A stretch of DNA of 37,024 nt, from NCBI GenBank assembly GCA_021810205.1, contig JAJZJC010000029.1, forward strand, positions 1 to 37,024, given 5' to 3'. The DNA is from Actinomycetes bacterium (GTDB lineage: Bacteria; Actinomycetota; Acidimicrobiia; Acidimicrobiales; RAAP-2). The notes under the pieces are model-generated. The model did not search any database and was not told the origin of the DNA. It saw only the letters and a list, made by a program, of their open reading frames with translations. Positions 2,659 through 36,864 of the stretch are shown one piece after another. The position numbers and the translations under genes were made by a program. Positions within the stretch are counted from its first letter, which is position 1. The number at the start of each line of letters is the position of its first letter.

Positions 2659-4134
2659 GTGACCGACACGAGCGAGCGGGAGCCCCCTGCACCTGCGACT
2701 CGCGCGCTCGTCACCCCACCGGTCCCGACGGCGATCGACGCCGCCCCGTTCGACGATGCCCGCACGGCTGCGCTCCGGTCGAGGGCGATCGAAGTGCTCG
2801 CCGCCAACACTCGCGACGGGTACGTCGCCCCCGCGAAGGGTCTCTACATCCACCAGCACCTGTGGGACACGTGCTTTGTCGCGATCGGCCAGCGGCACTA
2901 CGACATCGAGGCCGCCATGAGGGGGCTCCGACGGCTCGTCGGCGCGCAGTGGAAGAACGGGATGGTGCCCCACATCCGCTTCGAGGCTGGCTGGCGGCAC
3001 TGGTGGGACCGGCACGTGTGGCGGAGCCGGGTGAACCCGGCCGCGCCGCGATCGCCGGCCACGGGTGGCATCAGCCAGCCGCCCATGCTCGCCGAAGCCG
3101 TCGTGCGCGTTGGCGAGGTGCTGGGGCGTGCAGAACGGCGGCGATGGTACGAGAGCATGTACCGGCCACTGGTCGAGTACCACCTGTGGCTCCACTTCGA
3201 CCGGGTGCTCGACGGCGACCGGCTCGCGGTCCAGATCCACCCGTGGGAGACGGGGCTCGACAACAGTCCACCGCTGCTCGAGCTCCTCGAACGCGCACGC
3301 ACCCCATTGTGGCTCGATCTCTTGGCGCGCTCGGGCGCGGACCGGCTTGCCACCAAACTTCGTTGGGACACCAAGTACGTCCCTGCCGACCAACGGAGCT
3401 CGACGCTCGAAGCACTCCGGCTCTACTGGGCCCTGGCCCGGATCCGGCGCCTGCGCTACGACACCGACGCCGCGCTTCGCCGCGGCCCCTTCGCCGTCCA
3501 GGACCTCACGGTCAACAGCATCCTGGTGCGCGCCAACGCTCGCCTGCGCGAGCTGGCCAGCGAGATCCGTGCGCCGCTGCCCGCGCACCTCCTCGCGGCC
3601 ATGTCCGCCCACGAGCGTGCGATGGGGGACCTGTGGGACGACGTCGACGGGCAGTACTACTCGCGTGACGCGAGATCCGGCGAGCTCGTCAAGGCGCCGT
3701 CGGTCGCGACGCTCATGCCGCTGTACGCGGGGTGCGTCGACCGAACGCATGCAACCGCGCTGGTACAGCTCCTGTCGAACCCCGGTGCCTTCGGCACGCC
3801 GTACCCGGTCCCGAGCGTGCCACCGGGCTCCCGGTGGTTCCAGCCCTGCCGTTACTGGCAAGGGCCCACGTGGATCAACGTGAACTGGCTCTTGATCGAC
3901 GGGATGCGGCGCTACGGCTTCGACGACGCGGCCGAGGCGCTCCGGCGACGGACGCTCGACGTCGTGACACGACACGGTTTCTTCGAGTACTACGACCCGA
4001 TCTCCGGCACCCCCGCGGGTGCCAAGGGGTTCTCGTGGACCGCCGCGCTGGTGATCGACCTCCTGGCGACCGAAGCCCGGGGCACGGCCCCGGGGTCTGC
4101 GGCACTGCGCGACCGACCCGCTGTCGCTCCCTGA
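2659..4134 (+). CDS. GH63-type alpha-glycosidase (glucosylglycerate/mannosylglycerate hydrolase-like)
   Basis: This is an intracellular (alpha/alpha)6-barrel glycosidase of about 491 residues; no signal peptide is seen. Family features include the WDTCF segment, WETGLDNSP (which in GH63 holds the general-acid Asp), the aromatic-rich WQGPTWINVNW stretch, and HGFFEYYDP near the C-terminus, where the catalytic base Glu sits. Characterised relatives release glucose or mannose from glucosyl- or mannosylglycerate, compatible solutes that are turned over when stress or nitrogen limitation ends; substrate here is inferred only. The frame is open back to 2488, but I prefer the GTG at 2659 because the upstream part is repeat-derived; neither start has a good ribosome site. 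No biosynthesis gene for such solutes is seen nearby. Confidence 0.8.
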   Translation: MTDTSEREPPAPATRALVTPPVPTAIDAAPFDDARTAALRSRAIEVLAANTRDGYVAPAKGLYIHQHLWDTCFVAIGQRHYDIEAAMRGLRRLVGAQWKNGMVPHIRFEAGWRHWWDRHVWRSRVNPAAPRSPATGGISQPPMLAEAVVRVGEVLGRAERRRWYESMYRPLVEYHLWLHFDRVLDGDRLAVQIHPWETGLDNSPPLLELLERARTPLWLDLLARSGADRLATKLRWDTKYVPADQRSSTLEALRLYWALARIRRLRYDTDAALRRGPFAVQDLTVNSILVRANARLRELASEIRAPLPAHLLAAMSAHERAMGDLWDDVDGQYYSRDARSGELVKAPSVATLMPLYAGCVDRTHATALVQLLSNPGAFGTPYPVPSVPPGSRWFQPCRYWQGPTWINVNWLLIDGMRRYGFDDAAEALRRRTLDVVTRHGFFEYYDPISGTPAGAKGFSWTAALVIDLLATEARGTAPGSAALRDRPAVAP

Positions 4135-4306
4135 CGGTGGCGCCGGCACAGACCGCGCACTGGCGGCATGGAACATGGCACGCGTCGCCCGGAGCGATCG
4201 CCGTGGCACGCCAGCCGGTCTCGATCTGCGCAAGCCCGCCGGCGATGCGCCCTAACGTGGATGAGAGCCGCCCCGATCCGGGCGAGAGCGACAAGGAGGT
4301 ACCAAA

Positions 4307-5185
4307 GTGGCGCGCTTCGTCATATCGACGCACGGTCGCCTGCAGGACTGGATCGCGGATGAAAAGGGCTATTTCGCCGACGAGGGTCTCGACTACGAGC
4401 TCGACGTGCGCGTCCTCGAGAACGCCGAGCAGAGCATCGAAGCTCCAGGCCGCTCGGAGATCCGGATCGGCGCCTACGAGCTCTACCGCTCCGGTGGCGG
4501 CGGCAAGAAGGACATGAGCTGCGCGTGCCACTGGGCGGTGAACCAGGCAGCAGCAGACGCCGCGGGCAAGATGTGGGGCGGCGCCTACGCCGTCCTGCCG
4601 AGCGGCATCTACGTCCAGGCGGACTCGGAGATACGGCACCCAAGCGATCTCGCCGGCGTGGAGATCGCCGTCGGCTACCACTCTGGGAGCCACTTCTCGA
4701 CGATCCAGGCGCTCGAGCCGTTCCTCGCGCCCGATGACATCCGCCTGCGGTTCGGCGGCATGCCCTACGACCGTGTCGACGCCCTCCTCGACGGGTCGGT
4801 CGCCGCTGCGGCGATCTGGAGTGCCCCGACGTACCTGGTGGAGCAGCTCGGCTGCCGAAAGGTGCTCGACACCACGTTCATGGCCGGCTTCATGTTCGGC
4901 CCATCGATCGACGCCGTCGACGTGCGGGGGTACTTCCGGGCGCTGCGGCGGGCACAGGCCGAGCTCGACTTGGAACCCGAAGCCTACAAGCACTACTACA
5001 GGGCGGAGATCCCCGACCGCTACCGGGAACGGGTCGACGTCCGTTGCTTCGGGACTGGCGAACGCATCGTCTTCCTCCCCTATACGGCCGACGCGTACGA
5101 GCGGTCTCAGCGCTGGATGCGCGAACGGGGGCTGTTCGAGACGGCAAGCGACCTGCCCGAGTACGCCTCGGTCGTCGAGACCTGA
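4307..5185 (+). CDS. NMT1/THI5-like substrate-binding-fold protein, cytoplasmic, with CACH motif
   Basis: The 292-residue protein has the pattern of the NMT1/THI5 and ABC-transporter binding-protein fold: a start reading FVISTHGRLQDW with an early GYFADEGLDYE, then HPSDLAGVEIAV, and a hinge region IWSAPTYLVEQLG. It has no signal peptide or lipobox, and no permease or ATPase gene is adjacent, so it is probably not an importer component. Cys72-Ala-Cys74-His75 sits inside the fold. Yeast-type THI5, which makes the thiamine pyrimidine from its own histidine and PLP, depends on a Cys-rich CCCFC motif, so a metal-dependent or self-sacrificing chemistry is a speculative alternative to ligand binding. 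The GTG start has a strong AAGGAGGT six bases upstream, and TAACGT at 4253-4258 is a possible -10. Function is not known. Confidence 0.75.
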   Translation: MARFVISTHGRLQDWIADEKGYFADEGLDYELDVRVLENAEQSIEAPGRSEIRIGAYELYRSGGGGKKDMSCACHWAVNQAAADAAGKMWGGAYAVLPSGIYVQADSEIRHPSDLAGVEIAVGYHSGSHFSTIQALEPFLAPDDIRLRFGGMPYDRVDALLDGSVAAAAIWSAPTYLVEQLGCRKVLDTTFMAGFMFGPSIDAVDVRGYFRALRRAQAELDLEPEAYKHYYRAEIPDRYRERVDVRCFGTGERIVFLPYTADAYERSQRWMRERGLFETASDLPEYASVVET

Positions 5186-5202
5186 CGCACCAGGTCAGGT
5201 CT
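5178..5202. terminator. bidirectional terminator hairpin between convergent genes
   Basis: Perfect 9-bp arms AGACCTGAC (5178-5186) and GTCAGGTCT (5194-5202) flank a 7-nt loop. The hairpin covers the stop codons of both convergent genes (5183-5185 plus strand, 5195-5197 minus strand). There is no long U tract, as is usual in high-GC actinobacteria. Confidence 0.6.
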
Positions 5203-6178
5203 TGCCCGTCACCGCGGTGTCGGCGGGTCGAGCTGACGTGGCACGCACGAGATACCAGGTCCCGCCGAACGACTCGATCCCCTCGCCTTCATCCTGCTTC
5301 GGCGCGCTGTCGCCGGCGTAGGTGTAGAGGCGGTAGCCATTGAAGGTGACCTGCTGCCTGCCGTCTCTGGGGACGAGCCCGAGGGCGCCGTGGACCCCGG
5401 GGCCAGCATGGAGCCGCCGCACCGAGGACGCGACCAGAAGCGGCGGCCAGATGGAAAGGCAGCCGCCGCGGCACACCGCTTGCGCACCGTCTCGCGCCCG
5501 CAGGAGGTAGAGCGTGCGCCCGCGCCGGGTCGCGAGCACATTTCCGTAGCCAGCCACATGCACGGCGCTGACGACATCACGGTTCGCTGCTGTAGCGATC
5601 CCACCGACCGGCGATGCCTGCCAGAGCGTGATGGAAAAGGCGACCAACGCGGTGAGCGCGACCGGCGACACCGCCTTGCCAAACGTCCTGAGCGCCGCTG
5701 TCCCGGCCTCGATGACCCTGCGCCGAGGCCCCCTGGAGGGCGCAGCGCGTCTGGTCGCCGCCGTGGCCAGGAGCCAGAACGCGCCGATGTCCATCAGTCC
5801 CGATGCGATGCCCGGCGCCGTCACGACTTCGTGAAACCCGAAGAGCCCTACACCGAGGCTGAGCAGGTAGCCCCCGAGCGTGGCCAGCGAGAACAGGGCG
5901 CCTCCGAGCGTCGCGAGGCGTAGCGGGGTCGCCAGGACGACGAGCCCGATGCTGCACGCGACGGACGCCTGGAACAAGAACAGGAGGCCGATCGTCGGTA
6001 CTTGCCCGTACCCGCCGACGAGGTACAGCGCGAGATGCTCGGCTCCCGTCGCGACGAGGAGAACCGCCCCCAAGAGCCGTACCAGTGCGCCCCGGCGCTG
6101 GCGCGCCACCGCCGCGCGCGGCCCAGTGCGCCCTCCATGCCCCGACCCCAGTCGGCGCGACCCCGGACGCCCGGACAT
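5195..6178 (-). CDS. five-TM membrane protein with C-terminal 'secreted repeat' (PF03640-like) domain
   Basis: After a basic N-terminus, about five hydrophobic helices are visible (starting LVRLLGAVLLVATG, IGLLFLFQASVACS, LATLGGALFSLATL, SGLMDIGAFWLL and VALTALVAFSITLW). The last ~115 residues match the pattern of the short extracytoplasmic repeat usually found in small lipoproteins (PF03640): GRTLYLL, a Cys-x3-Cys pair in CRGGCLSIWPP, and NGYRLYTYAGD ending in GGTWYLV. The family's role is not established. A fusion to a multi-helix membrane anchor is unusual, since typical members have a lipobox. The gene lies downstream of the aminotransferase on the same strand, separated by a 20-bp repeat array. 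Confidence 0.75.
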   Translation of the reverse strand: MSGRPGSRRLGSGHGGRTGPRAAVARQRRGALVRLLGAVLLVATGAEHLALYLVGGYGQVPTIGLLFLFQASVACSIGLVVLATPLRLATLGGALFSLATLGGYLLSLGVGLFGFHEVVTAPGIASGLMDIGAFWLLATAATRRAAPSRGPRRRVIEAGTAALRTFGKAVSPVALTALVAFSITLWQASPVGGIATAANRDVVSAVHVAGYGNVLATRRGRTLYLLRARDGAQAVCRGGCLSIWPPLLVASSVRRLHAGPGVHGALGLVPRDGRQQVTFNGYRLYTYAGDSAPKQDEGEGIESFGGTWYLVRATSARPADTAVTGKT

Positions 6179-6210
6179 GGCACCGTACTACTCCGTCCTC
6201 CTCCATCACG

Positions 6211-6300
6211 GAGCGCGGCGGGGCGTCACGGAGCGCGGCGGGGCGTCACCGAGCGCGGCCGGGCGTCACCGAGCGCGGCCGGGCGTCACCGAGCGCGGCG
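6211..6300. repeat. 20-bp tandem repeat, 4.5 copies
   Basis: The unit GAGCGCGGCGGGGCGTCACG repeats at 6211, 6231, 6251 and 6271, with a partial fifth copy at 6291; units differ at one or two bases. The stop codon of the upstream minus-strand aminotransferase (6288-6286, TGA) lies inside the array, so every full unit carries the same potential stop. Confidence 0.9.
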
Positions 6301-7524
6301 GGGGGGGCGGCCTCGAGAATCGCCCGTGGCGGCGCCCATCCGCTCCACGGCCTCGGTGAGCAGCGATGCGGACGTCGCGAAATTCAGACGGGCGCAGCGC
6401 TCGCCCCCCGAGCCGAACGCGGGCCCCGAGCTCAACAGCACGCGCGCGTGCTCGAGGAACCAGGCGGCCACGCCGGTTCGGGCGCTTGCATCGCCACGCA
6501 CCAATTCGGTCGGCGTGCCCGGCGTCGACGTGACACGGGCCAGCTCGGAGAAGTCGAGCCACGCGAGATAGGTCGCCGCACCAGGGGTCCAGCGCACCGA
6601 CGGCAAGCTGGCTGCCAATAGCTCGCCGAGGAGCGAGCGATTGCGGTCGAGGCCGTCGACCACCGCGTCCAACCACTCCTCGCCATGGCGCAAGGCGGCG
6701 GTGTGGGCCAGCACCGCGAGATGGCTCGCCCCGTGACCGACTTCTTCGGGCAGCCTGGTGAGGTCGCCGGCGGCGGCGGGTCCGGCAAAGGCGACCGCTG
6801 CCTTCAAGCCCGGGAGGTTCCAGCCCTTGGACGCCGAGACGAGCGCGAACCCGCGCTCGGCCCCGGCAACGGCGAGGTAGGGGGTGAAGGTGGCGCCGGG
6901 GAGCACCAGTGGCGCGTGGATCTCGTCGGCCACGACGCGCACGCCGGTTGCCTCGGCGGCGGCAGCCACCCCGGCAAGCTCGTCGGGCGAATGGACGGTC
7001 CCCGTCGGGTTGTGCGGGTTGCACAAGAGGAAGGCCGCGGCCCCGGCGGCGCCAGCCGCGTCGAACGCGTTGGCGAGGGCCGGCAGGTCCAGGCGCTGCG
7101 CCGCGTTCAGCGGCACCTCGACGACGCGGCGTCCGAGATGCGCTGCGAACGCGTAGAAGGGCGGGTACACCGGTGGCGTCACAACGACCGCGTCGCCGGG
7201 CGCCGTGACGAGCTTCAGGAGCTCCACCGCGCCGAGCATGACGTCGGGGACCAGGGCACTGCGCGCCGGGTCGAGGCCGCCGAACCCCCAGCGCGCTGTC
7301 GCGAACGCGGCGTATGCCTCGGCGTACTCGGGACCGAAGGCATAGCCGGTGTCTCCCCGCTCGAGCGCCTGGCGCAGTGCGTCGACGACAGGGCGCGCGG
7401 GCATCACGTCCATCTCTGCGACCCACAGGGGGAGGACCCCGGGATCCGCCGCCCGCCACTTGGCGCTGGTGCGCAACCGGAGCTGATCGAGCGAAAGATC
7501 GAACGGAGGGGCGTCGACGGGCAT
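6286..7524 (-). CDS. MalY/PatB-family aminotransferase (cystathionine beta-lyase type)
   Basis: A PLP fold-type I enzyme of 412 residues, the usual length. Visible family features are LPLWVAEMD near the start, GAVELLKLVTAPGDAVVVTPPVYPP split over the substrate channel, NPHNPTG, VADEIHAPL (Asp pairing with the PLP pyridine) and SASKGWN with the Schiff-base lysine. PatB/MalY enzymes cleave cystathionine or cysteine to homocysteine or pyruvate with ammonia; exact substrate is unknown. ATG at 7524 is chosen because TAGCGT (7538-7533) sits eight bases upstream, as expected of a leaderless transcript, and the longer frame upstream has no family similarity. The last few residues and the stop are contributed by the 20-bp repeat array. 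Confidence 0.87.
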   Translation of the reverse strand: MPVDAPPFDLSLDQLRLRTSAKWRAADPGVLPLWVAEMDVMPARPVVDALRQALERGDTGYAFGPEYAEAYAAFATARWGFGGLDPARSALVPDVMLGAVELLKLVTAPGDAVVVTPPVYPPFYAFAAHLGRRVVEVPLNAAQRLDLPALANAFDAAGAAGAAAFLLCNPHNPTGTVHSPDELAGVAAAAEATGVRVVADEIHAPLVLPGATFTPYLAVAGAERGFALVSASKGWNLPGLKAAVAFAGPAAAGDLTRLPEEVGHGASHLAVLAHTAALRHGEEWLDAVVDGLDRNRSLLGELLAASLPSVRWTPGAATYLAWLDFSELARVTSTPGTPTELVRGDASARTGVAAWFLEHARVLLSSGPAFGSGGERCARLNFATSASLLTEAVERMGAATGDSRGRPPRRAR

Positions 7525-7687
7525 GCCTGCGGACGCTACCCGGTCGCTCCCGAACGCTCGGGCGGCGTGCGCCCGGGCGGCGCACCGGCGGGGAGCACTG
7601 GATCGGGGGCCCCGGCGAGCCCGGGGACCATCGCCTCTGACATCGAGCGCGGCGCGGTGGGAAGGTGGTCGGGCGAAGGAGGTCTCC

Positions 7688-9013
7688 ATGACGTTCGTCG
7701 ACCGTGCGGACGCGGGTCGCCAGCTCGCGCGACGGCTCACTCACCTGCGCGACGAGCCGCTGGTCGTGCTCGGCCTGCTCCGTGGCGGCGTCCCCGTCGC
7801 CTACGAGGTCGCCGCGTCGCTCAGAGCCCCGCTCGACGTGATCGTCGTGCGCAAGCTGGGCGTGCCCTACCAACCCGAGCTCGCGATGGGGGCCGTCGGT
7901 GAAGACGGCGTGCTCGTCGTCGACAAGGGCATCGTCCGCGCGACCGGGATCGGCGTCGACCAGTTCGCCGGGGTCGAAGCGCGCCAGCGCGCGGAGGTCG
8001 AACGGCGCGCGCGAGAGCTACGCGTGCGTCGCCCGCGCGTCGATCTCGAGGGCCGCACCGCGCTCGTCGTCGACGACGGCATCGCGACCGGCGCCACCGC
8101 GCGCGCCGCATGCCAGGTCGCGCGCGCGCACGGCGCGAGACGGGTCGTGCTCGCCGCCCCCGTCGCCCCGCTGGGTTGGGAAGAGCGCCTCGGCGCCGAC
8201 GCCGACGAGCTGGTATGCGTGGACACCCCCGAGTCGTTCTCCGCCATCGGGCAGTGCTACGAGCACTTCTTTCAGGTCACCGACGCAGAGGTGCTCGACT
8301 GCCTCGAGCGGGCTCGCCGCGCGCGGTCCGCGCAGGAAGCGACGTCACCGCAGCGCCTCGCGCGCGACGAAGGCGTCGCGATCCCCGCCGGGACCGTCCA
8401 GCTCAGCGGCCACCTCGCCCTCCCGGTGTCCCCGATCGGAGTGGTGGTCTTCGCGCACGGTAGCGGCAGCAGCCGCCACAGCCCCCGCAACCAATACGTC
8501 GCGGGCGTGCTGCAGCACGTGGGCATCGCCACGCTGCTCTTCGACCTGCTCACCGAGGAAGAGGAGCGCAACCGCGCGAACGTGTTCGACATCGAGCTTC
8601 TCGCCGGCCGACTGGTGGAGGTCACCCGCTGGCTGCATGTGCAGCCGCTCGAAGAGGCGCTGCCCATCGGCTACTTCGGGGCGAGCACCGGGGCGGGCGC
8701 GGCCTTGTGGGCTGCAGCCGAGCCAGGATCGAGGGTTGCCGCCGTGGTCTCGCGCGGCGGGCGCCCCGACCTCGCCGATACCAGGCTCCCCCGCGTCGGT
8801 GCGCCGACGCTCCTCGTCGTGGGCGAACGGGATGACGCCGTGCTGGCACTGAACCGGCAGGCACAGGCGAAGCTGCGCTGCGACAGCCGCCTTGCCGTGG
8901 TGCCCGGAGCAACCCACCTGTTCGAAGAGCCAGGCGCCCTCGAGGCCGCGGCCTACGCCGCGCGCGACTGGTTCGTCGCGCACCTTGTCGCGGCACGGGC
9001 CGCGGCGAGCTGA
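7688..9013 (+). CDS. phosphoribosyltransferase fused to alpha/beta hydrolase
   Basis: The 441-residue protein has two domains. Residues ~1-215 are a type I phosphoribosyltransferase with the PRPP loop VVDDGIATGATARAA. Residues ~225-441 are a dienelactone-hydrolase-like alpha/beta hydrolase: oxyanion region FAHGSGSS, nucleophile elbow FGASTGAG, acid residue in GERDDAVL and His in GATHLFEEPG. The same architecture is known in mycobacteria (Rv0571c type), where the function is not settled. AAGGAGG lies just upstream of the ATG. The gene diverges from the aminotransferase and converges on the RNA methyltransferase. Confidence 0.87.
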   Translation: MTFVDRADAGRQLARRLTHLRDEPLVVLGLLRGGVPVAYEVAASLRAPLDVIVVRKLGVPYQPELAMGAVGEDGVLVVDKGIVRATGIGVDQFAGVEARQRAEVERRARELRVRRPRVDLEGRTALVVDDGIATGATARAACQVARAHGARRVVLAAPVAPLGWEERLGADADELVCVDTPESFSAIGQCYEHFFQVTDAEVLDCLERARRARSAQEATSPQRLARDEGVAIPAGTVQLSGHLALPVSPIGVVVFAHGSGSSRHSPRNQYVAGVLQHVGIATLLFDLLTEEEERNRANVFDIELLAGRLVEVTRWLHVQPLEEALPIGYFGASTGAGAALWAAAEPGSRVAAVVSRGGRPDLADTRLPRVGAPTLLVVGERDDAVLALNRQAQAKLRCDSRLAVVPGATHLFEEPGALEAAAYAARDWFVAHLVAARAAAS

Positions 9014-15104: not shown

Positions 15105-15818
15105 TCAGCTCGCGGCGCGCCGGTGTCCGTGCTGCCAGTCCTCTTGGACGCCGACCGTCCCCTCCTCCACGCCGAGCGCGCGGAGCTGTGGAGTCTCGCG
15201 GAGGGAGCGCTTCAGTTCGGCGAAGCCGCCGAAGCGAGACAGCGCGACCACGTGGTCCCACAGCTCGACGGCCTCCTTGTCGCTCGGGAGCCTGCTGATC
15301 ACTGGACCGAACAGGGCGCTGCCCGCCGGCGGGTCGAAGTGCAGGATCGGGGTCCCGACGTCGCGACCGGTCAACTCGAGCGCCCGGTCGGTCTCCGCCT
15401 GGATCACCGGGTCGAGCGAGGTATCGCCGATCGCATCCAGGGTGCGTGCCGGCAGTCCGAGCAGTTCGAGCACCGGCGCCGCACACGCGCGCGTGTCGCG
15501 TTGCAGCTCCTCGCGCCTCGCTGGCGGCGAGTCGAAGAGCTCGGTGCCATACGCGAGGTAGAGGTCGGCGACCGCGGCCTCGCCGTGGTCACGGCGCACC
15601 GCCGCCGCTACGCGCAAGAGCTCGAGCCCTGCGGTGTGCGCGCGCTCGTAGTCGGGCGGGAACTGCGCGGCATAGTCGAGGCCCGCGTTCACCATGCGCA
15701 GCGAGATGAAACGCCAGGCGACCTCGTAGTCGCGCTGGGCCGCCACGAGACGCACCCACTTGCTGGTCATCCAGGCGAACGGGCAGATCGGATCGAAGTA
15801 GAAGTCGAGGTCGGCCAC
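15105..15818 (-). CDS. DsbA-family oxidoreductase of mycothiol-dependent nitroreductase (Rv2466c) type, second active-site Cys missing
   Basis: The 237-residue thioredoxin-fold protein begins DLDFYFDPICPFAW. In Rv2466c-type enzymes this position is a CPWC active site; here it reads Cys12-Pro-Phe-Ala15, a one-cysteine form. The conserved cis-Pro region GRDVGTPILHF and the helical insertion are present. It is probably cytoplasmic, as no signal peptide is seen. One-cysteine forms can still work through mixed disulfides with a low-molecular-weight thiol such as mycothiol. TAGGGT about a dozen bases before the ATG is a plausible -10 for a very short leader. Confidence 0.8.
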   Translation of the reverse strand: MADLDFYFDPICPFAWMTSKWVRLVAAQRDYEVAWRFISLRMVNAGLDYAAQFPPDYERAHTAGLELLRVAAAVRRDHGEAAVADLYLAYGTELFDSPPARREELQRDTRACAAPVLELLGLPARTLDAIGDTSLDPVIQAETDRALELTGRDVGTPILHFDPPAGSALFGPVISRLPSDKEAVELWDHVVALSRFGGFAELKRSLRETPQLRALGVEEGTVGVQEDWQHGHRRAAS

Positions 15819-26157: not shown

Positions 26158-26673
26158 ATGGAGACCTGGGATGCCATTCGGTCTCGGCGCAACGTGCGGA
26201 GCTACACCGACCACCCGTTGGCGCGTGCGGACCTCGAGCGGATCCTCGAAGCAGGACGGCGCTCGCCGTCGTCGACCAACTGGCAGCCGTGGCACTTCGT
26301 CGTGGTGACCGACCGCCAGCAGCTCATCGACCTCTCCGAGACCTGGAGGGGCGCTGGGCACGTGGCCGTATCGGCGGCGACGGTGGCGCTGATCGGCGAG
26401 CGACCCTCGGACGAGCGACGCCGCGACTCGCTGCAGTACGACCTGGGACAGGCGAGCGCGTTCATGATGCTCGCTGCAGCCGATCTCGGGATCGGCTCGG
26501 GACACGCGGCGGTGGGTGACCAAGCGATCGCGCAGCGCGTGCTGGGCTTCCCCGACGAGTACGTGTGCTGCTACCTGCTGGCGTTCGGCTACCCCGACGA
26601 CCGCCCCCTCGCGCCGCTGCGCAGTCCGGATCGCAGACCGTTCGACGACGTCGTCCACTGGGGCCGCTGGTAG
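26158..26673 (+). CDS. nitroreductase-family flavoprotein
   Basis: The 171-residue protein is a short nitroreductase-fold enzyme: METWDAIRSRRNVRSYTDHP with the FMN-phosphate-binding Arg cluster, AGRRSPSSTNWQPWHFVVV, and GYPDDRP near the C-terminus. Family members use FMN and NAD(P)H to reduce nitro groups, quinones or enones. AGGAGG precedes the ATG. It may be a stress-response enzyme like its Hsp20 and DoxX neighbours, but there is no direct link in the sequence. Confidence 0.88.
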   Translation: METWDAIRSRRNVRSYTDHPLARADLERILEAGRRSPSSTNWQPWHFVVVTDRQQLIDLSETWRGAGHVAVSAATVALIGERPSDERRRDSLQYDLGQASAFMMLAAADLGIGSGHAAVGDQAIAQRVLGFPDEYVCCYLLAFGYPDDRPLAPLRSPDRRPFDDVVHWGRW

Positions 26674-28658: not shown

Positions 28659-29879
28659 TCAACCAGCTGCAGGTGCTGGGTTCGGGCCGCCGCCGAGCGC
28701 GCCAGCAAGTACGGAGAACCGCACCCGCTCTTGCTCCAAGCGGAGCGAGGGTCCGTAGGTTCCTTCGACGAGGTCGCGATACAGCGCCAGCTCGTCCGCA
28801 GAGAGGTGGGTCATCGCCCGAGTCGCCGGACTGGGCTCGCGCACCCAGTGGCGAGAGTGGGCGAGGAACGTGCCACGGTCCATGAGCATGGACCGCACGT
28901 TCGGGAGGTGGCTGCGGAGCCGGTTCAAGATGTCGAACCCGTGGGTGTCGATGTCGCCCCAGTAGACGATGTCCTTGCTCGCCAACCACGGCAGCGCGAC
29001 GACGCCCCCGAGAGCGAAGCCCGATCCGAAGACCACAATGGCGCCCACGACGGGTGGGAACGCCAGATAGGTCACTTCGTTCTCCACGACGAACACCGTG
29101 GGCGCGCCAGGGTCGCGTCGGGCGAGCTCGTCGCTGCGCACGGACATCTCGCTGAAGCCCCAGCTCCCCGCCTCGATGCCCGGATCGAGCACCCGCAAGC
29201 GGGTGTAGGCGGGTTTGTCGAGAAAGCCGAACCGGCGCGCGAACGTCACCGCCCGTCCGCGCGTGTCGACGGGCTCGACTGCCAGCACCACGCGCAAGAG
29301 CTGATCGAGCAGCTTTTGGTGCTGCTCGACGAACTTGGTGTCGACGCCCTCGACGTCGATGTGACGCAGGTATATCCGCGACGTGTCGTGCGCTGCGATC
29401 CAGCGCACCGTCTCGAGCAGCTCGTCCCAGATGCCGGCGTGGCGCAGCGCCGTCACCGGATGCGACGCGACCCAGTTGGCGAGGGATGGAACCGAAGAGC
29501 GGGTCGTCGCGAGGAGCGAGTCGAGCGACTTGACCTCCGCGTCGGTCCCCAGGATCCGACAGAGCTGGGAGAACGAATCGACGGCTGCGCGAGCCGGAAT
29601 CCGGTTGGTTCCCACATGACGACTCTGGACGTCTTTGTACGTGAGGGTGAACCCGGCGGCGTCGCGCTCGAACCTGGTGACCCACGCCCGGCAGGCGTCG
29701 AGCCGTTCGAGCAGATCGGTGGCCGTCGGCCCTTTGATCGCAAGCGTGACGGGCTGCCACTGCTGCCCGGTGGCGTACGCCTCGAGATACGACCCGGCCT
29801 CCCACCTGCGGCGCAGCACGGCGACCAGCTGCTCCGCGCGGGTCCACGGCGGTTCGGCGCCGCTCGGCGTGCGTCTCAC
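28659..29879 (-). CDS. jetD: Wadjet protein JetD, nuclease subunit
   Basis: The 406-residue protein has a DUF3322-type N-terminal part and a DUF2220-type C-terminal part with Toprim residues: Glu near residue 265 in VFVVENEVTYL and Asp-x-Asp in WGDIDTHGFDIL near residue 309. In characterised Wadjet systems JetD is the metal-dependent nuclease, related to topoisomerase VI/Spo11 subunit A, that cuts closed circular plasmid DNA after JetABC has extruded it. The GTG start overlaps the jetC stop (GTGA). The key acidic residues are intact, so it is probably active. Last gene of the operon. Confidence 0.93.
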   Translation of the reverse strand: MRRTPSGAEPPWTRAEQLVAVLRRRWEAGSYLEAYATGQQWQPVTLAIKGPTATDLLERLDACRAWVTRFERDAAGFTLTYKDVQSRHVGTNRIPARAAVDSFSQLCRILGTDAEVKSLDSLLATTRSSVPSLANWVASHPVTALRHAGIWDELLETVRWIAAHDTSRIYLRHIDVEGVDTKFVEQHQKLLDQLLRVVLAVEPVDTRGRAVTFARRFGFLDKPAYTRLRVLDPGIEAGSWGFSEMSVRSDELARRDPGAPTVFVVENEVTYLAFPPVVGAIVVFGSGFALGGVVALPWLASKDIVYWGDIDTHGFDILNRLRSHLPNVRSMLMDRGTFLAHSRHWVREPSPATRAMTHLSADELALYRDLVEGTYGPSLRLEQERVRFSVLAGALGGGPNPAPAAG

Positions 29880-32800
29880 GCTGCCGGCCCGTCAGGTCCT
29901 CTCGCCGCCACCAGGCGGGGCCCCGCCGCCGGGTCGTCTACGCCACCGAGGAGCCGGCGGAACTCGGTGATGGCGAGGGACTGCAGGCGGGAGTAGTTGC
30001 CGTTCGGATTGTCGACGAAGCCGACCGCGGCGACATGCGGCTCGATCACATGGATCTTCTGCAGGGGCGTGACGATCAGCAGCTGCAGGCCGAGGCGGGT
30101 GAACAAGCTGAGGGCGTAACGGGTGGACGCTTCCGAACCGCGGCTGAACGCCTCGTCGATGACCACGAAGCGGAAGGCCTTCGAGCGGGCCGCGCCCCAG
30201 TCCAGCTTGAATTGGTAGGCGAGCGAGGCCGCCAGGATGGTGTAGGCGAGCTTCTCCTTCTGGCCGCCCGATTTCCCACCCGAGTCGCTGTAGTGCTCGT
30301 GCTCGACGTCGCCGTCGCGCCAGCGCTCCGACGCGGAGAAGACGAACCACTGGCGCACATCGGTCACCCTCCGGGTCCACGCCCGGTCGATCTCGGTGAA
30401 ACCCTCCCGTCCCTTGAACCGGTCGATGAGCGCCTTCACCTGGAGGAACTTCTGCTCGGAGTACTGGTCGCTGCGGTCGGCACTGACGATGCCGTCGGTG
30501 CAGGCCCGCAGGTCTGCCCTGAACTGGCGGACGTCGGTATTGGGGCTCGTCCCGGCGATCAGCCGGATGTAGCGCCCGTCGTTGTAGTCGATGTCTTCGA
30601 GCGACCGGTTGATGGTCTCGAGGCGGTCCTTGATGTCCCGCTCCTGGGCGTGGAGCCTTGCCGCGAACCCGGCGATGTCGCGGATCGTGTTCTGGTTCAA
30701 GTAGTCCTTGAACTCGGCCTCGAAGCGGGGAAGATCGTCGTCGCACACTCTGCGGTGCAGCTCGCGGTAGTCGGCGCCAGACTCCACGGCGTCGTCCATC
30801 TCTGCGGTTTCCTGCGGATAGCGGTGGCGGAACTCCCCCATCTTCTGGATGATGCGTCGTGCGAGCTTGTGCCCGGTGTCCTCCAACTTCTGGCACTCGG
30901 CAGTGAGGAGCTCGGAGACGGCCTGCTCGGCTCGAGCCAGCGCGGCGGCGTCCTCCATTGGACCCGGCACGGTGGAGCGGATGATCGCGTCGACGGCCGC
31001 TCGGTCCTCGTCGCTCGCGCCAGCGCCTGGGGCGCGGGCGAGCACTGTCACCGCACGGCGCAGCTCGGCTTCTGCGGCGTCGCGCCGGTGGCCGATCGAG
31101 CCTTTGCGCCGCTCGAGCGCGCCGAGACGACCCTCGCTCGCTGCGATGGCCTCCTTGGTCCGGTCGAGCTCGGCGTTCAACGCGGACAGCCGGTCCGAGG
31201 TCGACAGGATCCGCTGCCTCTCCGCCTCGAGCGCGGCGATCTCGTTCACGAGCCCCTCCCAGTCGAGCTCGCCCCACGACGAATAGCCGTCGAGACGCGC
31301 GAGGGAGACCAGGCTCGCTGCCACTGCGTCCGCCTCCTGCTTGCGCTGGCGGATCTCGGCGTCGTGAGCCGAGATCCGCCGTTGGATCGCCGTGGCGTGG
31401 TCGATCAGCGCCTGGATCTTCGCCTCGTTGCTCCAGCCGAGCACGTACTCCCGCCGGTCGTCGATGCGGCGGCGGTCGTCCTTTTCGTGGCGCTCTCGGT
31501 CCTTGATCTGCCCGGTCCGGGTGACCGCCTTGGCGCTGGAGCGGAACTCGGCCATGGTGTCCACGCAGGCGTGGTTGGCCCTTCTCGCCAACTCGGTCTC
31601 GAGCCACGCGCGCAGCGGGGTGTCGGGCTTGATCTCGACTTGGTCGACCAGCAGTGGCAGCCCCTCGGCGCGCTCGGGGCGCGGCACGGCGGGCAAGGCA
31701 GCGGGCACCCGGTAGTAGACGAGGCGCGCCGCCAGGTGGTTGTCGTTGATCCAGGCCGCGACCTGCTCGTAGAAGGCCGACGGCACGAGCATGGAGAGCG
31801 CGAAGCTGTGGAGCACCCGCTCCGCCGCGCCCTCCCACTCTGGCGCGTCGGGGCGGACCTGGATGAGCTCGCCGGCGAAGGGCAGATCGCCGGCGTCCAG
31901 CCCGAGAGCCGCGCACAGTCTGGCCCGCAGCTCCAAGCTGGTCCGGGGAAGGTTGGTGCGTCGGGATCGCAGGCTGTGCAGCTCGTCGTGGACGGCTCGT
32001 GCCTCGTCCTGGATCTTTTGGAGGGCGACCGAGGCGTCGGTCAGGCGGTTCTGGGACTCGGCCTGCGCGGTCCGCAGCTGCACGTCACGGGCACCGACCT
32101 TCGTCTTGGCCGCGGCGAACTGCGACTCGCTCGCCACCGGTTCGAGCCCGGCGCCGACGAGCAGCTCGTTGAACTTGTCCTGTCGCTGCCTGCGACGGGG
32201 CTGCTCACGGGTGAGCTCGCCGATCTCTTCGGCGATGTCCTCCAGACGGTTGCCACCCTGGCCGGCGATCTCGATCTTCAGGCGTGCGGCCCCCTCGCGC
32301 AGCGCGGCCAGCTCCTCTGCCACGATCCCGAGCGAGGTCTCGACCTCTTGGGCCTCTGCCTCGAGCGCGCTGATCTGGGCCTCGAAGATGCCGCGGGCGC
32401 GCTCGGCGAAGAGATACGGCAGCGCTCGCTGCCTGGCGCGCACGGTCGCCGCTGCCGCCGTGGCCTGATCGTGCGCGTCCAGATCGGCAACGAGGGGCGA
32501 GAGCAGCTCGAGCTGGTGGCGCGCCCGGACGACGGCGTCGTGGGCCCGGGTGAGGTTCTCGAAGTGGTCGACCAGCGTGGCGATGTGGGCCTTGGTGTCG
32601 AACGGCTCGAGCATGTGGCTGCGCACGAACTCGGTGAGGTCGTCCACCGCCTTCATCGACACCGTCTGATGGAACAGCTCCATGGCCTGTTCCGATTCGA
32701 TCCCGAGCCGCCGCCGGAACTCGCGCCCGTACTCGGCGAACGTGTCGCTCACCTTGGCGCCGGCCGCTCGCAGACGGCGCTTCAAGGAGAGCAGCTCGGT

Positions 32801-33325
32801 GCCGAAGTCGAAGAAGTCGGCTCGGATGCTCATCTCCCGGTCGGCAACCACGAAGAAGCGGTCGGGCTGGCCGGGCTGGCCGGGCTCGCGTGGGCGGAAC
32901 ACCTGTGCGAGCGTGACCGTCGTGCCGAAGTCCAGATTGGCGAATATCCCGAGGATCACCGAGAAGGAGCGGGCGTCGCGCAGCCCAACCGGGCGCGAGG
33001 TGCCGGTCGTCTCGTTTCGTTCGGACTTGAAGTGCCCTTCCACATACGACCGCAGGTCCCGCTCGCGCGTGTCCGCGCCGGCGGCCCGGTTGTAGGAGAT
33101 CTTGTGGGACGCCAGCAGCAGAGTGGTGATCGCGTCGACCAGGGTGGACTTCCCCGAGCCGATGTCACCGGTGAGCAGCGCGTTGCGTCCGGCGAGATCG
33201 AACGACCAGACCTCGCGGTCGAAGGTCCCCCAATTGAACACCTCGAGCCGGCTGAGCCTGCTACCGGGCAGCCGATCGGGCTGGGCCGCTTCGAGCTGGG
33301 CCATCGTGAAGAGTGCCTGGGTCAT
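29876..33325 (-). CDS. jetC: Wadjet protein JetC, SMC-like (MukB-type) ATPase
   Basis: The 1149-residue protein is an SMC-type ATPase. The Walker A LTGDIGSGKSTL is at residues 51-62, there are long coiled-coil arms with a central hinge region, the ABC signature YSDSGGKSGGQKEKL is near residue 1013, and Walker B FRFVVIDEAFSRGSE is near 1052. Dimers of JetC with JetA and JetB form a loop-extruding motor that recognises small circular DNA by its topology. It starts one base into the jetB stop (TGATG), showing coupled translation. The large open frame on the opposite strand is a codon-bias shadow. Confidence 0.95.
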   Translation of the reverse strand: MTQALFTMAQLEAAQPDRLPGSRLSRLEVFNWGTFDREVWSFDLAGRNALLTGDIGSGKSTLVDAITTLLLASHKISYNRAAGADTRERDLRSYVEGHFKSERNETTGTSRPVGLRDARSFSVILGIFANLDFGTTVTLAQVFRPREPGQPGQPDRFFVVADREMSIRADFFDFGTELLSLKRRLRAAGAKVSDTFAEYGREFRRRLGIESEQAMELFHQTVSMKAVDDLTEFVRSHMLEPFDTKAHIATLVDHFENLTRAHDAVVRARHQLELLSPLVADLDAHDQATAAAATVRARQRALPYLFAERARGIFEAQISALEAEAQEVETSLGIVAEELAALREGAARLKIEIAGQGGNRLEDIAEEIGELTREQPRRRQRQDKFNELLVGAGLEPVASESQFAAAKTKVGARDVQLRTAQAESQNRLTDASVALQKIQDEARAVHDELHSLRSRRTNLPRTSLELRARLCAALGLDAGDLPFAGELIQVRPDAPEWEGAAERVLHSFALSMLVPSAFYEQVAAWINDNHLAARLVYYRVPAALPAVPRPERAEGLPLLVDQVEIKPDTPLRAWLETELARRANHACVDTMAEFRSSAKAVTRTGQIKDRERHEKDDRRRIDDRREYVLGWSNEAKIQALIDHATAIQRRISAHDAEIRQRKQEADAVAASLVSLARLDGYSSWGELDWEGLVNEIAALEAERQRILSTSDRLSALNAELDRTKEAIAASEGRLGALERRKGSIGHRRDAAEAELRRAVTVLARAPGAGASDEDRAAVDAIIRSTVPGPMEDAAALARAEQAVSELLTAECQKLEDTGHKLARRIIQKMGEFRHRYPQETAEMDDAVESGADYRELHRRVCDDDLPRFEAEFKDYLNQNTIRDIAGFAARLHAQERDIKDRLETINRSLEDIDYNDGRYIRLIAGTSPNTDVRQFRADLRACTDGIVSADRSDQYSEQKFLQVKALIDRFKGREGFTEIDRAWTRRVTDVRQWFVFSASERWRDGDVEHEHYSDSGGKSGGQKEKLAYTILAASLAYQFKLDWGAARSKAFRFVVIDEAFSRGSEASTRYALSLFTRLGLQLLIVTPLQKIHVIEPHVAAVGFVDNPNGNYSRLQSLAITEFRRLLGGVDDPAAGPRLVAARGPDGPAA

Positions 33326-33945
33326 CACGAACCGTCCCCCTGCTCCTCGCCATGGCCGACGAGCAGGGAGTACTCCTCGAGGCGCTGGTCGAAGTCCGAC
33401 AGCCACTGGCCGTCCACGAAGGCCTTGAGGATGCGCCGGACTTCGAACACCTGCTCTTGATTTCGCAACGGGCGGAGGAACCCCATCTCGACGACCCGCC
33501 TGATGTGGCCGTCGATCGTCTCGACGATCCTGGCCTCGTTCGCCGAGTCAGGCAGGTACAGGCGCAGCATGTCGACGATCTGGTCCCGGGTGAGCACCAG
33601 CCGGGTGTCGGCGCTCGTGGCGTCGAACTCGGCCAGCCGCTTGCGCAGCAGTGCCAAGAGCATGCTCACATGGAACGACAGCGTGCGCCTGGCCACCAGG
33701 CGGGGCAGGTCGGGGTCGTCGTCGCGCGCCGCGCGGCTCTTCAGGTAGGCGTACCCCTCCGCCTCGTCGAGAACGACGGTGAGGCCGAGGACCGACACGT
33801 AGTCACCGACGTCGCGGCGCAGACGCACCAGGTCGTCCCACACCTGCTCGTGGGTGTCGCGGTACACCGGGCCCTTCATGAGGTGGATCACGGCGGACGA
33901 CAGATCGCTCGGAGCGGTGCTGGTCGTCGAGGTGGTGTCAGTCAT
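33325..33945 (-). CDS. jetB: Wadjet protein JetB (MukE-like kite subunit, DUF4194)
   Basis: The 206-residue protein matches the DUF4194/JetB pattern: after a Thr/Ser-rich start, SAVIHLMKGPVYRDTHEQVW, then LLALLRKRLAEFD, TRDQIVDMLRLYLPD and VEMGFLRPL form two winged-helix units typical of kite proteins. It links JetA to the JetC arms in the loop-extrusion complex. Its ATG overlaps the jetA stop (ATGA). Confidence 0.92.
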   Translation of the reverse strand: MTDTTSTTSTAPSDLSSAVIHLMKGPVYRDTHEQVWDDLVRLRRDVGDYVSVLGLTVVLDEAEGYAYLKSRAARDDDPDLPRLVARRTLSFHVSMLLALLRKRLAEFDATSADTRLVLTRDQIVDMLRLYLPDSANEARIVETIDGHIRRVVEMGFLRPLRNQEQVFEVRRILKAFVDGQWLSDFDQRLEEYSLLVGHGEEQGDGS

Positions 33946-35393
33946 GAGCCTTCCGTGGCGCTGTCGGCCCGGCTCCTGGTGAACGTGGCGCGCGGCATGT
34001 CGACCAGGCGCTCGCCGTCGTCGACCGACCACGCGATCTGCTCGCGCTGCGCGCCGTCGAACACCACGGCGATGCCCGGCTCGTCGAGCGACAGGTAGGC
34101 GATCAGCTCCGCCAGCCCATGCTGGAGCGGAGCGGAGGCGACGACGTCACGGAGTCCCACCTGCGTGCGCGGTCCGAGACCGGCGAACACCCGGCGCGCC
34201 AGCTCCTCGCGGTCCACGTACGTCTGGGACACGAGCGCCGAGGCGTCGAAGTCCTCGGCGCCGGGACCCGCTCGCGCCGAGTCGAGCGGGACCGTGCACG
34301 GTCGCCGGTAGAGCGGGCGCTCCATCGGCAGGTGGACCGAGACACGGGCGTCGTCCATCTCCATGGTCACCGACGGGTCCTTCTCCCGGCGCAGCTGCAG
34401 CGCCTTGCCCTCGATGGTGCGCAACAGCTCGAACACCCGCCGGTTCTCCAGCCAGACCTGGTCGTCGAGGAAGCGCCGCAGCTGCTCCGAGAGCAGCCGG
34501 ACCGTCGACTGGGTGCGCTCGCTGGCCTCGATCCAGTCGTAGTGGACACGGCTGAGCCGCTCGTCGTGCTCGGTGATGTCGAGCGTCCGCAACCGGTTCA
34601 GCAGATCCGTGAGCTCCTCCTGGCGCTCGTGGGACAAGAGGAAGTCGTAGAACGCCTGGAAACTGCGACCTTGGTCCGATTCGGCGATGGAGTGGCGACT
34701 GCCCAGCACGTCGTCGAGGAGGGCGCCCTTGGTCCCGGTCCAGCCGGCGATCTGCTGGCGCAGATCCCGGTCCAGCCGGCGGAAGTTCTCCTCCACCTCC
34801 CGGAAGTCGGACAGCAGCTCGCGTGCCGTCTGGGAGAACTGCTGGTACCGGTCCCTCAGGCTGGCGGAGTCGAGCACCGTGACCTCGCCTCGCTCGACCC
34901 GGGCCATCTCGGCGTCGATCTCGTCGCGCCGCCGGCGGAGCTCGGCCAGCCGCCGATCGGGGTCCTCGTCGGCGCCGAAGACCATCTGGCGCAGCAAGTC
35001 GAAGATGGTGTTCAGGCGGGACTCCGTCCCGACGAAGTCCCGGCCCTTCAGCTCCTCCACCCACAAGAGGCACTTTTCGAGGACGGGGGTGATGTCGTAC
35101 CTGGGCTCGTCGGAGCCCGGCGGGTAGAACTTGCGCAGCCACCCGTGCTCCGACGTCCACTCGTCGAGGTACGCCTGCGCGGGACGCGGGAAGCGGTCGC
35201 CCCCCAAGCGCTCGTTCAGCGCGTACAGCTCGTCGTCCAGCTCGCTGATCACCTCGGATGCCGCCAGATCGCCGACGTTTCGTTGGATGAAGACGCGGCT
35301 GACGAAGCTGAGTACCAGCGCTGCATTGGACGCCCGCAGGAGACTCCACGCCGGGTGACGCTCCCGGAGCTGCTCGATGTCGTCGTAGTGCAT
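33942..35393 (-). CDS. jetA: Wadjet protein JetA (MukF-like kleisin, DUF3375)
   Basis: The 483-residue protein matches the DUF3375/JetA pattern: WSLLRASNAALVLSFVSRVF at the start, YDITPVLEKCLLWVEEL, and a long helical middle including WLENRRVFELLRTIE, the kleisin-type bridge of the JetC ATPase heads. ATG at 35393 is preferred because the alignment-like region begins there; the frame is open to 35528 but that part would overlap the preceding gene. The leader holds three TCGGTYGCCG repeats. The typical domain content of all four jet genes points to type I Wadjet. Confidence 0.92.
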   Translation of the reverse strand: MHYDDIEQLRERHPAWSLLRASNAALVLSFVSRVFIQRNVGDLAASEVISELDDELYALNERLGGDRFPRPAQAYLDEWTSEHGWLRKFYPPGSDEPRYDITPVLEKCLLWVEELKGRDFVGTESRLNTIFDLLRQMVFGADEDPDRRLAELRRRRDEIDAEMARVERGEVTVLDSASLRDRYQQFSQTARELLSDFREVEENFRRLDRDLRQQIAGWTGTKGALLDDVLGSRHSIAESDQGRSFQAFYDFLLSHERQEELTDLLNRLRTLDITEHDERLSRVHYDWIEASERTQSTVRLLSEQLRRFLDDQVWLENRRVFELLRTIEGKALQLRREKDPSVTMEMDDARVSVHLPMERPLYRRPCTVPLDSARAGPGAEDFDASALVSQTYVDREELARRVFAGLGPRTQVGLRDVVASAPLQHGLAELIAYLSLDEPGIAVVFDGAQREQIAWSVDDGERLVDMPRATFTRSRADSATEGS

Positions 35394-35400
35394 TGCCTGG

Positions 35401-35443
35401 TCGGTCGCCGATCTCGCTCGGTTGCCGGCTCGGTCGCCGATCT
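35401..35443. repeat. direct repeats in jetA leader
   Basis: TCGGTCGCCGATCT is present at 35401-35414 and again at 35430-35443, with a related TCGGTTGCCG at 35418-35427 between them. They lie 8-50 bp upstream of jetA and may be a repressor site or simple duplication. Confidence 0.6.
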
Positions 35444-35457
35444 TGCCTTCTTCGATG

Positions 35458-36864
35458 TTAGGACGGGGCTGTGACCACGACGGGACGAGCCTCGCGTGTG
35501 CCCGGGACGGCGCTCGGTGCGCCTTCACGGCGCGACGACGCCGACGTCCCTGCCAGCGTGCGACGCACGGCGAGATCCGCCATGTCCGCTGCGGCTGCCC
35601 CCGCCGCCCAGCCTGCGAAGTTGGTCACTTCGCAGCTGAGACGGCCGAGGTCACCGAAGAGCGACTCGATCGCCTTGTCCACCTCGTCCGCCTGGCGGGC
35701 GAGCACGGGCAGGAGCCGGTTCTCGAGCGCCGCGTCCGCCTCTGCCGTCGCCGCGGCGGACGCCGATGCGAGCCGCACCCCGATCCGACGCGCGTAGGAG
35801 ACGAGGAAGGAGCGGCGATACGAGGCGCGACGCGGCCGGGCACCCGCCGACTCTGCGCGTCCGAGGGTCCGAAGCTGGTTCATCGCCTGGACGAGGAGCG
35901 AGGTGAACAACAACGCGGTCGCGTCGAGATCGACGTCGTAGCCGACCACCGTGGAGAACCCGAGGTCCGGCGAGACGACCGCGCGGCAGCGGTTCGCGTC
36001 TGCCACCACCGCGAGCAGCAGTGCCTTGGCCTGGAGATAGGGGTCATCCAGCCACACCCGGCGAGCCGCGACTCCCGGCGCGCCCGCGCCCGCGGTCCGG
36101 TCCCTTTCATCGAGCACCGCCCGGTCGATGCAGTGGCGCGTCATGAGCTCTTGGGCCTTGGCCATGCAGGACTCGGCCTCCTCGGGGAACTCACTCGACT
36201 CCGCCTTGGCCAAGAGAGAGCGGATCCTGGCCAGCTGGCGCTCGTCGTCCTCCGAGCGCGCCGAGCGCGCCGTTGCTCCGAGCATCCGCAGGTCCGCGAG
36301 CGCCGGCGCGTGCTCGAGGACGCCCAGGGCGTCGACGCCCGCCGAGACGGACGCCGACCAGCGAGCGCAGTCGGGGTCGAGGAGAACTGCACCACCGGCA
36401 CCGTCGGCGAACTGGTGTCCCCGGTGCCGTGCGGCGCCTGCGAGCGGGGCGGCAAGGACAGCGCACGCGGTCGCCCCGGCTTCGCGGCGGACGTACCGAA
36501 CGATCTCGTCGGGCTCCCAGCCCCGCCGGAGCGCGGCAGCGCAAGCGCGCGTCAGCATGTCGGCCAGGCGGCTGGCGACCCGCTCTTGGCCTCCCGGGAT
36601 GCCGAGCCCCGCCACGAGCGCCCCCAAGAGCTGCGCACGCTCGTCGAGATCGTCCCTCGACGACGAGTCGCAACACGCGTGCGCCGCACGTTCGACCGCG
36701 AGCTCGATGGCGTCGTCGAAGCCGTCCCCGCCAACCCGCGCCTCCTGCGGCGACGTCCAGCCCCGTTCGGCGCGCCGACCTGCGCTCGCCTGCTTCGTGC
36801 GCCGAGCCTGCCTCATCCGCCGGGTCTGCTTCGCGCGCCGACGGTCTCGGTTCTTCGTGCCCAT
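35458..36864 (-). CDS. DUF2786-domain protein of unknown function
   Basis: The 468-residue protein begins with an Arg/Lys-rich stretch (MGTKNRDRRRAKQTRR) and has a ~40-residue DUF2786 domain in its middle: RQLARIRSLLAKAESSEFPE followed by EAESCMAKAQELMTRH. The C-terminal half contains YRRSFLVSYARRIGVRL and alanine-rich helices, as in other long DUF2786 proteins. Their role is not known; the family occurs in phages and actinobacteria. It ends 64 bp before jetA on the same strand, so it may be an accessory or control gene of the Wadjet operon, or only a neighbour. A GGAGGA lies about ten bases before the ATG. Confidence 0.75.
   Translation of the reverse strand: MGTKNRDRRRAKQTRRMRQARRTKQASAGRRAERGWTSPQEARVGGDGFDDAIELAVERAAHACCDSSSRDDLDERAQLLGALVAGLGIPGGQERVASRLADMLTRACAAALRRGWEPDEIVRYVRREAGATACAVLAAPLAGAARHRGHQFADGAGGAVLLDPDCARWSASVSAGVDALGVLEHAPALADLRMLGATARSARSEDDERQLARIRSLLAKAESSEFPEEAESCMAKAQELMTRHCIDRAVLDERDRTAGAGAPGVAARRVWLDDPYLQAKALLLAVVADANRCRAVVSPDLGFSTVVGYDVDLDATALLFTSLLVQAMNQLRTLGRAESAGARPRRASYRRSFLVSYARRIGVRLASASAAATAEADAALENRLLPVLARQADEVDKAIESLFGDLGRLSCEVTNFAGWAAGAAAADMADLAVRRTLAGTSASSRREGAPSAVPGTREARPVVVTAPS

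Follow-up and report, generated by a model that had tools for sequence, protein, structure and literature searches.

The window (the whole stretch of 37,024 nt that was analysed) carries at 4307-5185 a gene whose product, judging from its sequence, could be a cytosolic PBP-fold enzyme that depends on Cys74 and helps to channel acidic aromatic compounds towards 4,5-cleavage, a reading on which we consider the chances evenly balanced. The cytosolic appearance of the protein, a cysteine that stays the same in its known bacterial and haloarchaeal relatives, and the genes for degrading plant-derived aromatic acids beside several of these relatives suggest that it is probably an enzyme and not part of a transporter. 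The features on which this reading rests are the following.

4307..5185, + strand: protein of 292 aa with a PBP type II fold and no leader, in the NMT1/THI5-like superfamily, a proposed Cys-dependent enzyme (ORF, Pfam and predicted structure)
4293..4300, + strand: AAGGAGGT, the ribosome-binding site, with 6 nt between it and the GTG (sequence)
4331..4339, + strand: His9-Gly10-Arg11, right after the first strand (residues 4-7), with His9 and Arg11 in 9/9 near-clade members
4520..4534, + strand: Cys72-Ala73-Cys74-His75-Trp76 (23-homologue alignment)
4679..4693, + strand: His125-Ser126-Gly127-Ser128-His129, at the start of the second-domain helix (residues 127-136; model and alignment)

The gene and its surroundings

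The 4307-5185 ORF is a genuine gene. It begins with GTG, comprises 292 codons and follows the strong ribosome site that a preliminary description of this DNA had pointed out. Because the frame upstream of the GTG stays open for 14 codons only (306 versus 292 aa) and the first predicted strand starts at residue 4, no export signal was seen in the protein; this judgement, made by eye, agrees with the earlier statement that such signals are lacking. From the missing leader we infer that the protein is probably cytosolic. Rfam and tRNA scans across the window were empty, as was a promoter and terminator scan of 4100-5300.

The gene is flanked on one side by an MGH1-like glycosidase gene and on the other by a convergent gene with a Lipoprotein_15 repeat. 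When 23 of the 29 other window ORFs were scanned with Pfam, neither an ABC-transporter family nor an aromatic-cleavage gene was detected, the former in line with the earlier statement that transporter partners are lacking; the transporters found in the window were one MFS and one cation-efflux protein. These data bear on the possibility that the gene has no specific function and encodes a normal binding protein of an ABC importer, with a leader that has been lost or was missed in the gene call. Such an explanation would fit the annotation of plasmid matches, 13 of 16 of which are named ABC transporter substrate-binding protein, and the position of one distant relative (L011), which adjoins an ABC operon. 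It is opposed by the 14 codons of open frame before the GTG, by the lack of an ABC family among the scanned ORFs and by the aligned homologues themselves, in which a hydrophobic leader was not seen by eye (two of the rows begin only inside the first strand). We regard it as unlikely.

Elsewhere in the window, a Wadjet (JetABCD type I) anti-plasmid defence operon occupies 28659-35528 on the minus strand, and its DUF3375 JetA, DUF4194 JetB, MukB-like JetC and JetD genes all match PADLOC models. A tandem 20-nt GC-rich repeat of about five units (6206-6305) lies between the minus-strand ORFs 5195-6178 and 6286-7740 and extends into the end of the latter. The window also encodes a mycothiol-dependent nitroreductase Rv2466c-like protein (15105-15818, minus strand) and contains a nitroreductase-family gene (26158-26673).

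Predicted fold

Both Pfam and modelling agreed with the binding-protein fold that had been recognized before. The NMT1/THI5-like family (PF09084) was matched at 23.3 bits against a cut-off of 20.5, with a best stretch of residues 16-32 only. An AlphaFold2 model built with 11 sequences reached a mean pLDDT of 85.6 and a pTM of 0.86, the loop at 39-52 being poor and unreliable, and an earlier model built with 9 sequences (pLDDT 71.9) matched the same families. The best structural match was SsuA (alkanesulfonate-binding; Z 22.1, rmsd 2.8, 261 aligned), and others were TauA (Z 20.4, rmsd 3.1, 262 aligned), PqqT (Z 18.7, rmsd 3.5, 266 aligned; PDB entries 9B1U, 9OOZ and 9B1V in the naming of the structure library), MqnD (Z 17.4, rmsd 3.6, 246 aligned), THI5 (Z 17.2, rmsd 4.0, 257 aligned, 15% identity) and DszB (Z 14.1, rmsd 3.9, 252 aligned). 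The match spans residues 1-292, and the fold predicted by the model is that of a whole PBP type II protein. Its predicted secondary structure includes a first strand at 4-7, a short strand at 73-74 followed by a helix from 75, and a second-domain helix at 127-136. A scan of viral contigs gave 50 pattern matches with no relative among them, and the viral structure library gave two matches at E up to 0.001, both of them PBP-like phage proteins.

The nearest solved folds (SsuA, TauA) are binders, not enzymes, and this favours the main rival to the enzyme reading, a cytosolic ligand sensor or carrier that has lost its leader and that buffers an aromatic acid or its ring-cleavage product or signals it to a regulator, with Cys74 shaping the pocket or sensing redox. 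The matches to the PBP-like regulatory domains of CmpC/NrtC (Z 18.2 to 19.5), which we take to be cytosolic, point in the same direction. However, the window protein has no attached DNA-binding or signalling domain, and an invariant, often sole cysteine beside an invariant tryptophan exceeds what a binder needs. A sensor is possible, and we do not think it probable.

Relatives and the Cys-x-Trp signature

Eight relatives aligned with the window protein at 49-66% identity, one of them (L005) being mismatched at the C-terminal end, and the nine near-clade proteins group together with 100/100 support. Distant relatives, at 23-30% identity, came from haloarchaeal, rhizobial, Geminicoccaceae and cyanobacterial plasmids and from two genomes of the window's phylum. 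At E up to 1e-15, matches were obtained in 3/396 genomes of the phylum sample, 2/298 of the order sample (the window's own genome is in both counts) and 4/296 of the class sample, and searches with relatives as queries gave 1/39, 1/247, 2/34 and 3/138. The gene is rare in the sampled genomes. On a Nostoc plasmid (L015, 1402-4179) a homologue is cut in two by an IS1380-family transposase gene.

Conservation was counted over 23 aligned homologues, the window's own included. This count leaves out the split Nostoc copy and L016, an exported binding protein with ABC genes, both of which were inspected separately; H10, because its listed identity, score and query span equal those of H9; and H15 and H16, which cover 30%. 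L008 and the G1170 match share a contig place and were counted once, and the L005 row, mismatched at its C-terminal end, was cut at 2521 (the ORF ends at 2584). Several of the 14 far rows resemble each other closely (for example L012/L027 and L010/L028), so that the 23 rows represent fewer independent cases.

The preliminary description had singled out a Cys72/Cys74/His75 cluster (CACH, 4520-4531) and had proposed its conservation as a check. The alignment separated the three residues. Cys74 was present, together with Trp76, in 23/23 homologues and was the sole cysteine in ten of them, seven of these haloarchaeal; the window protein itself has cysteines at 72, 74, 183 and 247 only. His75 was constant in the near clade (9/9) and found in 0/14 homologues outside it, where its place is taken by Glu (6) or Lys (8). 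Cys72 occurred in 6/9 near-clade members, the other three having Ala, Ser or Gly, and in 0/14 far ones. Because conservation of the three residues splits in this way, there is no conserved Cys-Cys-His site: Cys74 withstood the comparison and the trio as a unit did not. The family signature, as read from the alignment, is Cys-x-Trp and not Cys-x-Cys-His. The Nostoc copy, outside the 23-row count, keeps it as CEW, with the sole cysteine of its N-terminal piece, and exported L016, which has ABC partners, has no C-x-W. The same counts weigh on the earlier idea of a metal enzyme with Cys72, Cys74 and His75 as ligands. The trio does co-occur in 6/9 near-clade members, but Cys72 is lost in 3/9 of these and in 14/14 others and His75 in 14/14 others, while Cys74 and Trp76 stay, and we hold a metal site of this kind to be very improbable.

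In the model, Cys74-x-Trp76 is placed where a helix of domain 1 begins. As to whether the cluster lies near the cleft, secondary structure and a by-eye alignment lead us to expect the segment that holds the constrained Cys74 to be close to it, which would retain that part of the proposal. Six other residues were constant in the near clade (His9, Arg11, Ser128, His129, Arg156 and Arg253, each 9/9), and His125 was kept in 8/9 members; the number of constant residues suggests an anionic ligand.

Comparison with THI5 and other PBP-fold proteins

The cysteine cluster had also been likened to the essential cysteine motif of THI5. This iron motif, CCCFC (PMC10512395), corresponds to residues 195-199 of the compared THI5 chain and falls near residues 190-197 of the window protein, a stretch that is free of cysteine, the nearest being Cys183. 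The PLP lysine of THI5 is Lys62, with His66 a turn later (PMC10848271). The profile aligner left this region unaligned; by eye, on a shared Asp-Met block, KDMSCACHWAVN was aligned with THI5 VDMGLKAMIHTL, which places Cys74 within one residue of the catalytic Lys62 and, when set on the shared Asp, Ala at both the Lys62 and the His66 places of the window protein. CACH as a THI5-like cysteine motif was rejected, as it has no match to CCCFC and Cys74 is instead, by eye, beside the Lys62 place; for the same two reasons a thiamin-pyrimidine role is unlikely. A THI5-type thiamin pyrimidine synthase would share with the window protein its fold (Z 17.2, rmsd 4.0, 257 aligned), and THI5 is itself a PBP-fold enzyme with key residues in the matching helix-start segment (by eye). 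Nevertheless, the window protein has, in the by-eye alignment, neither the Lys nor the His (PMC10848271), and it has no CCCFC (PMC10512395), its identity to THI5 is 15%, and no thiamin genes were recognised beside the gene, so that a synthase of this type is hardly credible.

Solute-binding proteins of the SsuA/TauA/NrtA type (PF09084) resemble the window protein over the whole length of the fold and share blocks of the second domain at about residues 98-188; unlike them, the window protein is without a leader or found transporter genes and has the invariant Cys-x-Trp. DszB (2'-hydroxybiphenyl-2-sulfinate desulfinase) is a PBP-fold enzyme acting on an aromatic. A C27S mutant of it appears in PDB titles, and Cys27 is presumably catalytic, but the DszB cysteine is near the N-terminus and the window protein has none before residue 72. 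The menaquinone enzymes MqnA and MqnD are likewise PBP-fold enzymes (MqnD Z 17.4), but Cys11 of MqnD, which a PDB title names, does not coincide with the Cys74 position, and no menaquinone genes were recognised near the gene. We also take 4,5-dihydroxyphthalate decarboxylase (Pht5/OphC) to be a PBP-like cytosolic enzyme, one that feeds protocatechuate 4,5-cleavage. A search of the open PMC literature for the fold of dihydroxyphthalate decarboxylase, or for an NMT1-like protein with the gallate pathway, returned nothing relevant, and passages of PMC13040137 and PMC6362003 do not mention that fold.

Aromatic-acid genes beside the relatives

Genes of protocatechuate/gallate 4,5-cleavage type lie near the gene in 5/9 near-clade loci. 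At L040, genes for PIG-L, CHA aldolase and DUF1932 and then the near-clade gene are all on one strand, and the divergent side carries genes for an OMA (4-oxalomesaconate) tautomerase and a LigI-like amidohydrolase. The CHA aldolase scored 330.9 bits (cut-off 179) and was just under a second NCBIfam cut-off (300.8 vs 304.5), and the tautomerase scored 506.8 bits against a cut-off of 440; LigA and LigB were absent from this 9.7-kb contig. At L005 the gene and a LigI-like gene diverge, the latter sharing 45% identity with its L040 counterpart. In NCBIfam the LigI-like proteins match a different hydrolase, below its cut-off; LigI, LigJ, GalB and similar are enzyme names that we assume for the families found. 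At loci L003 and L004, LigA/LigB lie 0.7-0.8 kb downstream in convergent orientation, one small ORF separating them from the gene, and at L002 a LigB-like gene, RraA and genes for two amidohydrolases are 2-7 kb off, with a gene for a TPP enzyme adjoining. Because L003 and L004 are closely related and share their gene arrangement, these loci amount to about four independent associations. No aromatic genes were seen at the other four near-clade loci (the window, L019, L039 and L059), where L019, a 4.8-kb contig, and the greater part of L039 and L059 were assessed on their ORFs only. At L059 (827-3520, minus strand, genome G1220) the near-clade copy comes after genes for DUF692 (MbnB/TglH-type RiPP enzyme) and DUF2063 on the same strand.

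The window's own genome, G000 (72% complete), carries on contig C2 genes for RraA, PrpF, two amidohydrolases, LigA, LigB and DUF1932, the PrpF gene being 56% identical to the L040 OMA tautomerase, and on contig C145 LigA and LigB that share 82-85% identity with the L003 pair. On account of these two gene sets, the 4,5-cleavage pathway is probably present in G000, unlinked to the window gene. LigA scored above cut-off in 4/4 genomes of the subclade at 63-66% identity, compared with 12/296 in the class sample, which includes one of the four and is unmatched for genome size and completeness. It was not found in the near-clade genomes G1202, G098 and G1000 and was sub-threshold only in G668; these LigA counts cover 10 genomes, G1220 being left out. 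The orthologue encoded in the G1202 operon shares 51% identity with the window protein.

Annotated plasmid regions were also viewed, and the families of the L040 cluster recur in them. Two 4,5-cleavage regions (L062 and L063) contain PIG-L, CHA aldolase, OMA tautomerase, amidohydrolase, class III extradiol dioxygenase, Gfo/Idh and DUF1932, although the L062 gene at the LigA position bears the annotation protocatechuate 3,4-dioxygenase. The L060 region has protocatechuate 4,5-cleavage families without PIG-L and DUF1932, and L061 has pobA, LigA and a dioxygenase only. A relative of the window protein was absent from the L060-L063 records, none of which is among the 16 plasmid matches. Because no proteobacterial cluster viewed contains the gene, its product is not a general step of the pathway. 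LigI-like plasmid records numbered 215, and an annotated 4,5-dihydroxyphthalate decarboxylase near LigB was found in none of the 4 plasmid regions viewed (100 records matched).

Haloarchaeal gene runs

Six plasmid regions of haloarchaea each carry a row of three PBP-fold genes that lie almost end to end and, judged by eye, encode no leader. The three-gene runs are located as follows.

L009, 5950-8809
L010, 5944-8809
L012, 5938-8793
L013, 5938-8788
L017, 5938-8797
L028, 4944-7806

Their members are a C-K-W relative of the window protein, a PqqT-related protein and a THI5/ThiY-related protein. Cupin and VOC genes lie near the runs in 6/6 regions, and genes for AOR (3), xanthine dehydrogenase (1) or aldehyde dehydrogenase (1) in 5/6. 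The run is possibly an undescribed cytosolic enzyme system.

Proposed function

The protein combines a PBP fold and the lack of a leader with an invariant cysteine, often the only one, that stands two residues away from an invariant tryptophan. This combination suggests catalysis, and on this sequence evidence we lean towards an enzyme with some confidence. The neighbour genes of the relatives suggest aromatic acids as its substrates, and for a role in an aromatic pathway, which these neighbours imply, we see slightly better than even prospects. Such a role is weakened by the four near-clade loci at which no aromatic neighbours were seen, the window's among them, and by the near-clade genomes in which LigA was not found or was sub-threshold. 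That the reaction is a decarboxylation would be a guess, and a rather improbable one. In the mechanism that we propose, the two lobes would shut around the substrate, an acidic aromatic or a ring-cleavage compound, whose carboxylates would be gripped by Arg11, Arg156 and the 125-129 turn, and Trp76 would stack on it. Cys74 would then serve either as the nucleophile or as a general acid, and its tuning would fall to His75 in the near clade and to Glu or Lys elsewhere. As the likeliest reaction we would guess the removal of a ring substituent, for example one in which a dihydroxylated phthalate-type acid is decarboxylated to give protocatechuate. We place it as an entry step because the L040 cluster already has genes for a tautomerase, a hydratase-like protein (PIG-L), a lactonase-like protein and an aldolase.

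More widely, and tentatively, the Cys-x-Trp proteins may form a new family of cytosolic PBP-fold, Cys-dependent enzymes in actinobacteria, proteobacteria, a cyanobacterium and haloarchaea. The near clade would catalyse an undescribed entry reaction of 4,5-cleavage; the haloarchaeal clade would supply one member of a trio of leaderless PBP-fold proteins that a single gene run encodes near cupin and VOC (mostly also oxidoreductase) genes, possibly as a hetero-oligomeric enzyme. We hold this combined picture to be less probable than not by a good measure. Cytosolic PBP-fold enzymes are a known kind, and the Cys-x-Trp signature would be new; no published description of this Cys-x-Trp protein was found in open PMC papers. 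To our knowledge, few enzymes have the binding-protein fold; those matched here include THI5, DszB and the Mqn enzymes. If the proposal is true, a set of "ABC transporter substrate-binding protein" annotations, the name borne by 13 of the 16 plasmid matches, is wrong, and the substrates implied for these proteins would be acids that feed or leave protocatechuate and gallate 4,5-cleavage.
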